In this document: positions 1,569 to 25,307 of the stretch, in pieces
Layout: every line of letters starts with the position of its first letter
How positions within the stretch are numbered: position 1 is the stretch's first letter
Assembly: GCA_937931785.1 (NCBI GenBank)
Contig: CALHAX010000011.1
Coordinates: forward strand, 1-38,418
DNA: 38,418 nt
Reading direction: 5' to 3'
DNA from: an uncultured Hyphomicrobiaceae bacterium
GTDB lineage: Bacteria; Pseudomonadota; Alphaproteobacteria; Rhizobiales; CALHAX01
Notes under the pieces: model-generated
Databases searched by the model: none
The model's input: the letters and a program-made list of their open reading frames with translations, nothing else
What the model was told of the DNA's origin: nothing
Translations under genes and position numbers: made by a program

Positions 1569-2144
1569 ATGAAACGAATAGCAATTTTGACGTTGACCGC
1601 TGGTGCGATCGCCGTCGCCGGAATTGGCATTGGCGTCCATAAAGCTGAGTCCGCCGGCCATGGTGGCGACAGTTATCGCGGCAGTCACTCCGGTGGTGGC
1701 TGGGGCAAGCACGGTGGCGGTAAAAAACGGTGGGGGCGTGGGCATCACCGTGGCCATGGCATGCGTCACATGATGAAACGCTTTGACACCGACAAGGATG
1801 GCAAACTGACTCAGGACGAAATCAACTCCGCCCGGACGGCGCTCGTGACGAAGCATGACGCAGACGGTAACGGTCAGCTCACACTCGCCGAGTTCCAGAA
1901 TCTTTGGTTGGAAGTGCGCCGCAAGCGTATGGTGCGTTCGTTCCAGCGTATTGATGAAGATGGCGACGCAATAATTTCTGTCGAAGAGTTCCTTGAGCCA
2001 TATGCCCGCATCGTTGAACGCATGGACCGCAACGAGGACGGTGTTCTCGACAAGGCGGATCGCAAACGCGGTCGTGGATGGCGTCACAAGCGTCGTCACG
2101 GGGGCGAACGCAACAAGCCTGAAGGCGAACAGACCGAACAGTAA
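1569..2144 (+). CDS. Secreted His/Gly-rich EF-hand calcium-binding protein
   Basis: The 191-residue protein starts with a signal peptide (MKRIAILTLTAGAIAVAG, probable cleavage near residue 29 after AESA). Residues 30-68 are rich in Gly and His (GGGWGKHGGGKK, GHHRGHGMRH), which could bind transition metals. Four EF-hand loops follow: D73-E84 (DTDKDGKLTQDE), D97-E108 (DADGNGQLTLAE), D129-E140 (DEDGDAIISVEE) and D153-D164 (DRNEDGVLDKAD). The last has Asp in place of the usual Glu at position 12. The C-terminal tail is basic. The start is supported by AGAAAGG upstream. It is probably a periplasmic calcium sensor or buffer; the partner is unknown. Transcription ends against the small peptide gene on the other strand, with hairpins in between. 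Confidence 0.85.
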   Translation: MKRIAILTLTAGAIAVAGIGIGVHKAESAGHGGDSYRGSHSGGGWGKHGGGKKRWGRGHHRGHGMRHMMKRFDTDKDGKLTQDEINSARTALVTKHDADGNGQLTLAEFQNLWLEVRRKRMVRSFQRIDEDGDAIISVEEFLEPYARIVERMDRNEDGVLDKADRKRGRGWRHKRRHGGERNKPEGEQTEQ

Positions 2145-2150
2145 GTCTGG

Positions 2151-2171
2151 GAGAGATCAAAAAAATCTCTC
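2151..2171. other. Small A-loop hairpin
   Basis: GAGAGAT and ATCTCTC form a perfect 7-bp stem around an A-rich loop, seven bases after the EF-hand gene. On the minus strand the loop is a run of T. It may assist the stronger hairpin next to it; its role is inferred only. Confidence 0.45.
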
Positions 2172-2181
2172 GCAACACAGC

Positions 2182-2217
2182 AAGCCCCCCGCGGTGCAGT
2201 TGCATCGCGGGGGGCTT
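2182..2217. terminator. Strong GC hairpin between convergent genes
   Basis: AAGCCCCCCGCG (2182-2193) and CGCGGGGGGCTT (2206-2217) form a perfect 12-bp stem with a 12-base loop that can itself pair (TGCA/TGCA). It lies between the stop of the EF-hand gene on the plus strand and the stop of the small peptide gene on the minus strand, so it probably ends both transcripts. Neither side has a long T tract. Confidence 0.7.
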
Positions 2218-2242: not shown

Positions 2243-2341
2243 TTACCAACCGTAGTAGGTCTTGCATCCAGCTTGAGCGATGCTCGATGTCATGAGCGTT
2301 GCGGCTGCGACGAATGCAAATGCTGTGATTTTCTGGAACAT
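2243..2341 (-). CDS. Secreted micropeptide, 32 residues, predicted 8-residue mature part
   Basis: ATG at 2341 is preceded by AGGAGA at ideal spacing, and the frame runs 32 codons to TAA at 2243. The product starts MFQKITAFAFVAA, continues hydrophobic and ends its signal sequence with SSIAQA, a textbook signal peptidase I site. Cleavage there leaves only GCKTYYGW, with one Cys, two Tyr and a C-terminal Trp. Good ribosome site, coherent signal peptide, own leader of at least 100 bp and a hairpin after the stop all favour a real gene. I know no family with this mature sequence. It may be a signalling or metal/redox peptide, or a nearly bare signal peptide that acts in the membrane. The Cys does not sit in a lipobox: the residues before it are AQAG, without the needed Leu. 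Confidence 0.65.
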   Translation of the reverse strand: MFQKITAFAFVAAATLMTSSIAQAGCKTYYGW

Positions 2342-2689
2342 TTTTTATCTCCTGGGATTTCAGTTTGTTGAACTCCCGGGTGCGTCCTGCCTTCCCGGTT
2401 GCCAAGGCAATGGATCGGCCAGACGAAAATGTGTGCTACGTCACAGATATATTGTTCGAGAAGTTTCCCAAGCCATTGAATGAAAAGAGAAAATCGATAA
2501 AAGCTTCTTTCATATGCCATATGGTAGACGGGTGTTCGTGTGCATAGAGATTACAAATCGGGCGTTTGCGTAAAGTCCGCACAAGTTTACGTACCTCGGA
2601 TCCTTGCCACTCAGATTCCCCTTGACCTGGAGTCGCTCCAGTTCGGTATCTGAGCCTCAGTCAAATGGTGGGAGGAGAGGGAGGAGAGC
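2342..2689. other. Divergent regulatory region, 348 bp, no further gene
   Basis: This gap separates the secreted micropeptide gene (leftward) from merR (rightward). It holds the MerR-type promoter described separately and, in the leader of the micropeptide, a short hairpin TGCCTT (2388-2393)/AAGGCA (2404-2409). The stretch 2440-2540 is AT-richer than its surroundings and could hold the micropeptide promoter, but I see no clear -35/-10 pair. No coding signal was found in it. Confidence 0.5.
2622..2652 (+). promoter_or_regulatory. MerR-type promoter/operator with 19-bp spacer
   Basis: A -35 box TTGACC (2622-2627) and a -10 box TATCTG (2647-2652) are separated by 19 bp, the overlong spacer typical of promoters that MerR-family activators untwist. 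The spacer contains the dyad CTGGAGTCGCTCCAG (2627-2641). It faces the MerR gene 38 bp downstream, so the regulator most likely controls its own operon with the SDR gene. Confidence 0.75.
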
Positions 2690-3058
2690 ATGCGTATTGC
2701 AGAAGCAGCATCGCAATGCGGCCTGAGCATCGATACCATCCGGTATTACGAAAAGTCGAACATGCTTCCGCCCATCGCCCGCGGTTCGGATGGTCAACGG
2801 CGTTTCTCGAGCGAGAATATCGGCTGGTTGATCTTGCTGGCCTCACTTCGCGACACCGGCATGCCGACCGCAACTATGCGTAAGTTTGCGGCGCTCTATT
2901 GCAAAGGCGACAGCACAATGCCCGAGCGTCGCAAACTACTCGTCGCCCATGCGGCGTCCCTGCAAGAACGGCGCACCCAAATCACACGTTGCGAGGAACT
3001 TCTGGCTTACAAGATCTCGGTCTACGACGGCACGACAAACAAAGGAGGGAAACAATGA
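2690..3058 (+). CDS. MerR family transcriptional regulator
   Basis: The 122-residue protein opens with a winged helix-turn-helix of the MerR family: MRIAEAASQCGLSIDTIRYY, then the wing with GQRRFS near residues 35-41 and the second HTH around residues 45-70. The C-terminal half (75-112) is a helical dimerisation segment; its few cysteines (CKGD near 80, TRCEE near 100) do not form the clear metal-binding loop of CueR or ZntR types, so a small-molecule or redox ligand is more likely. GGAGGAG upstream fixes the start. Its stop overlaps the start of the SDR gene in ATGA, indicating translational coupling. The 19-bp-spacer promoter just upstream is the likely target. Confidence 0.88.
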   Translation: MRIAEAASQCGLSIDTIRYYEKSNMLPPIARGSDGQRRFSSENIGWLILLASLRDTGMPTATMRKFAALYCKGDSTMPERRKLLVAHAASLQERRTQITRCEELLAYKISVYDGTTNKGGKQ

Positions 3059-3654
3059 AGATCATTTTGGTCGGTGCCGGAGGCGATGTCGGACGCGCAG
3101 CCCATGCAGAACTCGCGTCGCGTCACGACATCATCACTGTTGGCCGCACCTCTGGTGACATTCAGGTGGATATAGAAAACAGGGCCTCCATTGAAGCGAT
3201 GTATCGAAAAACCGGACACGTAGATGCTGTGGTATCTGCAGCCGGCACTGTTCATTTCGGTCCGCTCACTGATTTTACGGAAGAGCAGTTCATGCTCGGG
3301 TTGCGCAACAAGGTCATGGGACAGGTCAACCTTGTGCTTGCCGGTCTGGATCATGTCACCGACGGTGGGTCTTTCACTCTCACCAGCGGCGTCCTCGATC
3401 GCGATCCCATCAGGATGGGATCCGGAGCGGCAACGGCAAACGGTGCACTTGGTGGATTCGTCGTTGGCGCAGCAATCGAGATGCCGCGCCAGTTACGGAT
3501 CAACGTCATCAGCCCCGGCCTCCTCGATGTGTCAGAAGAACGCTATGGGAATGCCTTCCCGGGCCATGAACGTGTGCCCTCCGATCGTGTTGGCCGTGCC
3601 TTTGCCAAGAGCGTTGAGGGCGCGATCACGGGCCAGGTGATTGTCGTCGAATAG
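3055..3654 (+). CDS. Short-chain dehydrogenase/reductase-like protein lacking the usual Tyr-Lys pair
   Basis: The 199-residue protein has an N-terminal nucleotide-binding motif VGAGGDVG (residues 6-13), the NAG-like VSAAG turn near 62 and a Ser in TLTSG near 110, all SDR hallmarks. The stretch where classical SDRs have YxxxK instead reads GSGAATANGALGGF, so the catalytic Tyr and Lys are replaced. This matches a known compact SDR subgroup of about 200 residues. GGAGGG precedes the start, and the gene overlaps merR by four bases. The enzyme may reduce a substrate by another mechanism or bind NAD(P)(H) without the classical chemistry; co-transcription with merR suggests it acts on, or responds to, the regulator's inducer. 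Confidence 0.85.
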   Translation: MKIILVGAGGDVGRAAHAELASRHDIITVGRTSGDIQVDIENRASIEAMYRKTGHVDAVVSAAGTVHFGPLTDFTEEQFMLGLRNKVMGQVNLVLAGLDHVTDGGSFTLTSGVLDRDPIRMGSGAATANGALGGFVVGAAIEMPRQLRINVISPGLLDVSEERYGNAFPGHERVPSDRVGRAFAKSVEGAITGQVIVVE

Positions 3655-23687: not shown

Positions 23688-25307
23688 ATGGCAACGGACA
23701 AGCTCGCACACATTCAGCGCATGCTGGACAAGGGGCAGATCCGTGAGGCCGCTCAGGTCTGTGAGGCTGCATTGCGTCAAGACCAGAAAAATCCAGGTCT
23801 GTGGAGCATGATGGGGCACATCTTGCTGGGCGCGCAAAAGCTGAAACCCGCATTCGAACACTTCGCACGCGCCATTAATCTTGAGCCTGCGAACCCGGAG
23901 CATCATGCGAACGCGGGTCATGTCCTGACGCTGGGGCAACGCTTCAAACCGGCAGAAGAAACGCTCAAGAAGGCGCTGGATCTGGGGAGTTCAGACCCTC
24001 GCGTGCTGCATGATCTTGGTGGCGTCTACCTCATGACTGAGCGATTTGGTGAAGCTGTTACAACTTTCGAGCGTGCGATAGATCTGGCACCGGATCAGGC
24101 TTGGCCGCACGCCAACCTTGGCATCGCGTTGCATCAGGTCAAAAGATATGACGAGGCTGTAGCTGCTTACCGTCGGGCCCTTGAAATCGACGAGCGCGAT
24201 GACAACACGCATTTCAACCTTGGTCTGACGCTTGGCGCATTGCGAGACCACGAGGAGGCGGTTCGCTGTTTCGAAGAGGCGGAACGGCTCAATCCGAAGC
24301 GCACCGACGTTGCGCGCCAGATTGGGCAGGTCAAACTCACGGCAGGGGATTATGGCGGGGCGGTTCCCTACCTTGAGAAGGTCATCGCGAATGCTCCCGA
24401 AGATGCGCAGTCCCAACTATCTCTGACGCACGCGTTCAGTTTTTCAGGGCGCCCCGCTGAAGCCATTACGTTGTGCAAGGAGATCATTGCGAAAGCTCCG
24501 AAAATCGTGGCTGCGCGAAACAACCTGTCCTTCGCGTACCTGAGGAATGGAGAACCAGAAAATGCGATCAGGATTTGCGACGAAATTCTTGTTCTTGCCC
24601 CCGGTCAGACGACGGCGCTCAGTCACAAGTCAGCAGCTCTGAACGAACTGGGGCACCGCGAGGAGGCCGCCGCAATTCTGGATCTCGATCGGTTGGTGCA
24701 GGCGAAAGTCTATGGTGTGGAGGGTAGCGATTTCGCAAATGTAGAGGATTTCAATGCCGCATTCTGCACCTACATCATGTCGCATCCCACATTGAGCTAC
24801 ACGAAGAACAACCGCACGCTCTCGTCCGGACAATGTACCCGCGACATTTTCGAAGATCTGCCTGCGGACCCCGGACCGGTCGTTCAGACCATGAAGGGCA
24901 TGATCGAGCAGTCCATTGCGGACTACAAGGCAGCCAATCCGGTTACGCCGGAACACCCGTTCCTGTTCCGCCATCCTGCGCGCTACAACATTGTGTGCTG
25001 GGCTAATGTTATGGATTCAGGAGGGTATCACGACACGCATTTTCATCCTCCTGGTTGGTTGAGCGGCGTGTACTATCCACAATTGCCTGGCGATGTTCGG
25101 GGCGACGATCCGAACCATGAGGCCTGGATCGAATTCGGTCGCGCCTATTATGCGATCGAAAGCAGCGACGAACCACCAGTGCGTGTCGTGATGCCACAAG
25201 AGGGAATGATCGTTCTCTTCCCCTCTTACACCGGCCATCGTACAATCCCGTTTCAGAGCGATAAAAAGCGTATCAGTGTGGCGTTTGACGTCGAACCGTT
25301 GGAATGA
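23688..25307 (+). CDS. TPR protein fused to a C-terminal Fe/2OG oxygenase (PF13759-like)
   Basis: The 539-residue protein starts with about nine tetratricopeptide units over residues 1-340 (for example AWPHANLGIALHQVKRYDEA near 138-157). After a linker with LDLDRLVQAK, residues 355-539 form a double-stranded beta-helix oxygenase: HDTHFHPPGWLSGVYY gives H448, H451 and H453 as metal-ligand candidates, H517 in SYTGHRTIPF is the distal ligand and R528 in KKRISVAF should hold 2-oxoglutarate. Relatives act as hydroxylases of unknown target; the TPR part suggests a protein substrate. No signal peptide is seen, so it is cytoplasmic. The FAD oxidoreductase gene starts three bases after its stop. Confidence 0.85.
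   Translation: MATDKLAHIQRMLDKGQIREAAQVCEAALRQDQKNPGLWSMMGHILLGAQKLKPAFEHFARAINLEPANPEHHANAGHVLTLGQRFKPAEETLKKALDLGSSDPRVLHDLGGVYLMTERFGEAVTTFERAIDLAPDQAWPHANLGIALHQVKRYDEAVAAYRRALEIDERDDNTHFNLGLTLGALRDHEEAVRCFEEAERLNPKRTDVARQIGQVKLTAGDYGGAVPYLEKVIANAPEDAQSQLSLTHAFSFSGRPAEAITLCKEIIAKAPKIVAARNNLSFAYLRNGEPENAIRICDEILVLAPGQTTALSHKSAALNELGHREEAAAILDLDRLVQAKVYGVEGSDFANVEDFNAAFCTYIMSHPTLSYTKNNRTLSSGQCTRDIFEDLPADPGPVVQTMKGMIEQSIADYKAANPVTPEHPFLFRHPARYNIVCWANVMDSGGYHDTHFHPPGWLSGVYYPQLPGDVRGDDPNHEAWIEFGRAYYAIESSDEPPVRVVMPQEGMIVLFPSYTGHRTIPFQSDKKRISVAFDVEPLE

Follow-up and report, generated by a model that had tools for sequence, protein, structure and literature searches.

The locus at 2243–2341

In the window, by which we mean the whole stretch of 38,418 nucleotides of Hyphomicrobiaceae DNA analyzed here, a micro-peptide gene of 32 codons plus TAA is located on the minus strand at 2243–2341 (ATG, 2341–2339; TAA, 2245–2243), as recognized from its open reading frame and from its relatives in two other genomes. 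The downstream gene, which encodes an EF-hand protein (1569–2144, plus strand), is convergent, and the upstream gene, which encodes a MerR regulator (2690–3058, plus strand), is divergent; an SDR protein and a DUF1989 protein are also encoded in the neighborhood. A ribosome-binding site, AGGAG (2349–2353, minus strand), is spaced 7 nt from the ATG; the start codon is fixed by a TAA that lies in frame two codons 5′ of it. The full product is MFQKITAFAFVAAATLMTSSIAQAGCKTYYGW, followed directly by TAA. Codons 1–24 (2270–2341, minus strand) correspond to a signal peptide predicted from hydropathy, MFQKITAFAFVAAATLMTSSIAQA, which contains a single Lys, a hydrophobic core (best 11-residue Kyte–Doolittle mean, 2.16) and the sequence A-Q-A ahead of Gly-Cys, and the remaining codons (2246–2269, minus strand) encode the predicted mature peptide GCKTYYGW. 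The cut site was placed by rule, after A-x-A. An earlier sequence-only reading had described, without giving a strand, a 32-codon frame with an ideal ribosome site and a signal peptide ending in AQA, followed by eight codons to the stop; all of these elements were present, on the minus strand, with the cleavage predicted by rule.

A strong hairpin (2182–2217, minus strand) starts 25 nt past the stop codon, in the space between the gene and the point where the convergent EF-hand gene ends. The folding energy of the stretch is −39.3 kcal/mol (z = −5.3), and none of 200 shuffled sequences was equally stable, in agreement with the hairpin noted previously. The hairpin is followed by a terminator-like short stem and T-run (2169–2184, minus strand); the T-run comes only after this second, weaker stem, and the number of terminator-like matches at the locus (one, against a shuffle mean of 1.6) was not above that of shuffled sequences. 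The long leader that had been proposed for the gene was not borne out: the ATG lies 348 nt from the divergent merR gene, yet a scan of 1480–2760 on both strands, which is weak in such genomes, detected no σ70-like promoter. A known RNA at the locus was rejected, because a search of the window gave no match at the gathering score and the 12 matches within 2150–2700 were all sub-threshold (E = 0.07 to 8).

Several other features of the window were recorded. The N-terminus of the EF-hand protein is signal-like, and the protein also contains a Gly/His-rich stretch; its match to lanmodulin (E = 1e-7) was weak, with 32.1 bits where the cut-off is 135. In front of merR, at 2622–2652 (plus strand), TTGACC and TATCTG are separated by a 19-base spacer, the start of which is spanned by a dyad, CTGGAG-TCG-CTCCAG; we take this arrangement to resemble a MerR-type operator-promoter for merR (2690–3058) and the overlapping SDR gene (3055–3654). 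At 23688–25307 (plus strand), a TPR protein with a putative C-terminal 2OG-Fe(II) oxygenase domain is encoded beside a gene for an FAD-dependent oxidoreductase. An oxidoreductase of the window is closest (~53%) to plasmid-borne copies in Agrobacterium, Sinorhizobium and Rhizobium, among others, which makes an alphaproteobacterial source near Hyphomicrobiales likely.

Relatives from two additional families

The window sequence was used to search 397 genomes of the order, among them that of the window, and a profile was run on what is apparently the same set. The window sequence gave matches in genomes G038 (E = 8e-4), G127 (E = 0.08) and G198 (E = 0.07; all E values per genome). The G198 match fell inside a long frame and was rejected as a member, which left two true relatives besides the window genome, G038 and G127, each from another family. 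Orthologous frames, which the sequence-only reading had named as the thing to look for in related genomes, therefore exist. The scores obtained with the window query alone are marginal given 397 genomes, and the case accordingly rests on the common tail, stop, Gly-Cys, start and hairpin. The layout was the same in the three families: a start codon, a Lys near the N-terminus, a hydrophobic core, A-x-A, Gly-Cys, a linker, Tyr-Tyr-Gly-Trp and a stop. G038 carries the forms MIRKIAAYAFVTASSMLVAGSAFA followed by GCVTYVPRYYGW, and a signal part ending in AFA followed by GCGGYVTRYYGW; the form in G127 is MKTINKISAVMVVGILSLAASSSAFA followed by GCYGYYYGW, with AFA ahead of the Gly. In every complete copy of G038 and G127, the stop codon immediately follows the Trp. 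The products of the peptide family are hydrophobic and 32–36 aa long. The calculated [M+H]+ of the predicted mature peptides is 977.42 for GCKTYYGW, 1131.42 for the G127 form, and 1463.68 and 1381.60 for the G038 forms.

Four sequences from the three genomes (window, G038 and G127) were aligned and converted into a profile, A1. At E values up to 0.001 this profile detected 3/397 genomes, and only these same three were convincing; at E values up to 1 it matched 255/397, nearly all weakly. Forty weak places were read (24 of the 27 fetched loci besides that of G127, the exceptions being L030, L031 and L034, and 16 from among the other weak places), and no member was found among them. A sample of the class (385 genomes) contained no member in the 384 genomes besides the window genome, a match in G511 being the signal part of another protein. 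A second draw from the order, restricted to genomes with a completeness of 99 or more (392 genomes, partly overlapping the first sample), yielded only G038. The gene was present in one of the five genomes of the family of G127; G038 was the sole genome of its family in the sample, as was G000 of its own. The peptide family is rare and scattered over three families of one order.

None of the genes scanned in the three neighborhoods (window, G038 and G127) was held in common. Pfam assigned the neighbors in G038 to RuvC, an FAD protein, a CobS-like AAA protein, a release-factor-like protein, YebC, a CorC/HlyC protein and 3-dehydroquinate synthase. In G127, the gene sits between zapA (Pfam E = 2e-16) and 6S RNA. 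Four congeners of G127 were searched and contained no family member anywhere; zapA was found in three of them, but not in G155, and in all three it is followed by 6S RNA with the peptide gene absent in between, which suggests a self-contained unit that is acquired or lost as a whole. In G127, an 80-aa frame (L046, 5098–5340, minus strand) occupies the gap between zapA and the peptide gene, abutting or overlapping each of them. It had no Pfam match, and may be either a coupled gene or an accident.

Seven matches were obtained in G038, where one and the same sequence of 128 nt stands at the ends of contigs C5 and C36 and at the starts of contigs C12 and C18. Since this identity at contig ends marks an assembly break at a repeat, G038 probably carries five genes, in two tandem arrays of two and three copies. 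At all four G038 loci (L042, L043, L044 and L045), the peptide arrays interrupt the assembly at the 128-nt repeat, so that draft assemblies of other genomes may show too few copies. The two arrays share ~100 nt (four mismatches) before the first copy and then diverge, indicating that the duplicated unit includes its own upstream region.

Hairpins comparable to that of the window were found 3′ of the G127 gene and of the last copy in both G038 arrays; over the four loci, in stretches picked by eye, the z scores were −5.3, −5.1, −5.6 and −4.5. The spaces between copies in G038 contained no hairpin beyond chance (z = 0.1, −0.1 and −0.1), and mRNA-stabilizing hairpins between copies were dropped from consideration on these values. 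Behind the G127 gene, a 13-bp stem is followed by a T-run. The promoter scan, again weak in such genomes, found no promoter-like site on either strand of the G038 stretches covered, and one site, on the gene strand, at the G127 locus.

The peptide family is in none of the libraries searched. When all four A1 sequences were compared with Pfam, NCBIfam, PHROGs and PADLOC, weak matches of single members were the most that was obtained: the best were K1-lyase_N in Pfam (E = 0.05) and EDSAP-1 PEP-CTERM in NCBIfam (E = 0.12), each with one member, together with four PHROGs matches (E = 0.03 to 0.22). PADLOC gave none. We take these weak matches to be signal-peptide noise. Three of the four A1 sequences had no match in plasmids, the window sequence had none in phages, and our literature search found no publication with the peptide strings or on this family.

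Conservation of the tail and control for chance

Within A1, the A-x-A (4/4 rows), the Gly-Cys and the Tyr-Tyr-Gly-Trp-stop are invariant, and the linker of 2–6 residues between Gly-Cys and Tyr-Tyr varies. Six of the eight residues of the predicted mature part of the window peptide are invariant, against 7 of the 24 residues of the signal part. The higher conservation of the last eight residues, proposed beforehand as a check on the gene, was thus found in these three genomes. The clustering of invariant residues in the tail disfavors the suggestion that the peptide is a regulator acting through its signal peptide only, and a function of the signal part alone was rejected on the same grounds.

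A second check concerned dN/dS. In the most diverged pair of G038 copies, the signal peptide showed six synonymous and no nonsynonymous differences (S = 18.8 and N = 53.2 sites), a distribution with a probability of ~3e-4 under neutrality by our own arithmetic, and this synonymous bias points to purifying selection. The mature part of the G038 copies showed one to two synonymous and four nonsynonymous differences, and all four of the latter were located in the linker. Both checks favor a coding gene with an important tail, subject to the caution that the G038 copies are related and few. The conservation amounts to few independent points, since the family occurs in only three genomes and the copies within G038 are closely related.

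As a control, at least 166 stretches were fetched by pattern, at least 117 from genome contigs and 49 from viral contigs. YYGW followed by a stop occurred 108 times among the stretches listed (74 in genome contigs and 34 in viral contigs), and in 0/108 of these listed occurrences was there a start codon 25–60 codons upstream with a hydrophobic N-terminus; the hydropathy cut was 1.6, which all four family sequences pass (1.82 to 2.64). None of the at least 117 genome-contig stretches combined a start with a hydrophobic N-terminus, a result of little bearing on the spread of the family, and in the viral contigs the fixed pattern gave no stretch and the gapped pattern gave 49, none with the layout. 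With assumed residue frequencies, we roughly estimate the chance of a tail G-C-x(2-8)-YYGW behind A-x-A at 3e-9. That two other families have relatives sharing this tail and stop suggests that the window frame is more than a chance frame. As a whole, the orthologous frames, the conservation of the tail and the purifying selection in G038 support the view of the sequence-only reading that this is a gene for an exported peptide with a predicted mature part of eight residues.

Function of the predicted mature peptide

The account that we favor, to which we give roughly an even chance, is that of a real, rare, Sec-exported micro-peptide that works through a free aromatic C-terminus; the product is probably a small ligand in the cell envelope. 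The gene, with the strong hairpin behind it, looks like its own transcription unit, and the frame would be translated. The product would enter the Sec pathway, and signal peptidase I would cut after A-x-A. A linear peptide, Gly-Cys-(2 to 6 variable residues)-Tyr-Tyr-Gly-Trp-COOH, with a length of 8 to 12 residues, would thereby be freed into the periplasm and possibly to the outside. One point against this account is that a 32-residue chain would still be mostly within the ribosome tunnel at termination, so that export would have to be post-translational; others are that no gene was common to the three neighborhoods among those scanned and that no promoter was found at the window or G038 loci. 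The free aromatic C-terminus of the peptide would dock in a receptor pocket of the envelope, as is suggested by a stop fixed right after the Trp and a linker free in length and sequence. The Cys could serve as a second handle, in a disulfide dimer or for a metal. The tandem duplication in one relative points to the dosage of a product, and not to a regulatory leader.

For the receptor, our most specific candidate, a guess with little probability behind it, is a PDZ domain belonging to an HtrA-type or C-terminal processing protease. AlgW and DegS are activated via their PDZ domains by free peptides in which the C-terminal positions 0 and −2 are aromatic (WVF, YQF and YYF), both tripeptides and decapeptides having been used (PMC8545111), and a YxF rule for PDZ activators is also given in PMC3582582. 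In all four A1 rows, position 0 is Trp and position −2 is Tyr. In its full form, which we regard as a long shot, the idea is that the peptides are gene-made free PDZ ligands, exported solely to mimic the C-terminus of a stray outer-membrane protein with Tyr-Gly-Trp-COOH. They would thereby control how active a periplasmic HtrA or C-terminal processing protease is, and disulfide dimers formed through the Cys would make avidity depend on the redox state of the envelope. The likeness to the C-termini of MucE and outer-membrane proteins in the AlgW/DegS system lies in a periplasmic free C-terminus with aromatics at 0 and −2; active peptides there have 3 to 10 residues (PMC8545111), against the 8–12 predicted here. 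Those activators end in Phe and are the tails of larger proteins, whereas the present family has Trp at 0, an invariant Cys and the standing of a candidate ligand. The fit of Trp to AlgW in WVF concerns position −2 and not 0 (PMC8545111). A further point against the idea is that the Cys has no role in PDZ binding alone.

Other explanations were weighed against this envelope ligand. An exported signaling peptide, that is, a mature C-terminal pheromone like Phr or PapR read by a cell-surface or imported receptor, is doubtful. Pheromones tend to vary, and YYGW is constant between the families; the variation of the linker among the G038 copies could be variation in specificity. The RRNPPA systems of Bacillota resemble the family in their small Sec-exported propeptides, with a signal of 5–10 residues that is typically C-terminal (PMC11343458), and the family sequences do combine a Sec signal with a short C-terminal mature peptide of predicted cleavage. 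However, precursors of the Phr/PapR type have 50–120 aa, are encoded beside their receptor and undergo further proteolysis (PMC11343458), whereas the present products have 32–36 aa, the window gene lies between those for an EF-hand protein and MerR, and the 10 Pfam-scanned neighbors of the G038 and G127 copies were of ordinary housekeeping or metabolic types, with no receptor gene. We hold it similarly doubtful that the Cys is acylated through the lipoprotein pathway, with signal peptidase II yielding an anchored C-KTYYGW. The Cys is invariant, and the sequence AFAGC in G038 and G127 formally fits what we take to be the lipobox pattern PS00013, so that signal peptidase II is possible for these two genomes, but AQAGC in the window fails at −3, where it has Gln. 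The earlier statement that the peptide does not fit lipoproteins is thus too strong. Lipidated modified peptides exist (PMC12636315), but Leu is absent from −3 in all four A1 sequences, and an A-x-A site lies at the same place.

The small size (under 60 aa), the hydrophobicity and the tandem copies in G038 would also suit a membrane micro-protein, such as a type I toxin, with an uncut segment in the inner membrane, the GC..YYGW tail in the periplasm and tandem units under antisense RNA. The type I toxins Ldr and Ibs are likewise tiny and hydrophobic, and occur duplicated in tandem arrays. HokB, moreover, dimerizes through a periplasmic Cys (PMC8309996). We nevertheless consider this unlikely: an uncleaved toxin needs no A-x-A, which is invariant here as is the YYGW tail, unlike in Ldr and Ibs; the 19-residue hydropathy of the four A1 sequences is moderate (1.48 to 1.93); the tail in G127 is without a cationic residue; and the scans, weak in such genomes, gave no sign of an antisense RNA, with no promoter-like site on either strand in the window or in the G038 stretches. 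It is very improbable that the exported Cys/Tyr/Trp peptide is a precursor which an enzyme encoded at another place in the genome modifies to bind copper or to serve as an antibiotic directed at BAM. Such a role has a parallel in darobactin, a small modified peptide that binds BamA. Most precursors modified by MNIO enzymes have Sec signal peptides, and most of these have Cys motifs (PMC12452194), so that bufferins and their like share with the family a Sec signal and a Cys in the mature part; they differ from it in that the mature part here has only 8–12 residues, and no MNIO or other peptide-modifying enzyme was detected by Pfam among the 24 other window proteins scanned or the 10 neighbors of the relatives. 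Finally, small frames are common, and a chance frame would agree with the marginal sequence scores, but this reading was rejected on the tail and stop common to three families, the synonymous bias and the 0/108 control among the matches listed. A leader peptide of another gene was also rejected, because the hairpin lies directly behind the gene, and the convergent gene downstream in the window and the terminator-like stem and T-run in G127 leave no regulated gene to attenuate; we give next to no credence to either a chance frame or a leader.

Genes this small are readily overlooked by annotation; in Sinorhizobium meliloti, 54 non-annotated translated small frames were reported, 33 of them of 10–49 aa (PMC10117765). 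If the envelope-ligand interpretation is true, the whole mature product of the family would be a Sec-exported peptide of 8–12 residues, constant at both ends and unconstrained in between, and would represent a type of envelope ligand new to Gram-negative bacteria.
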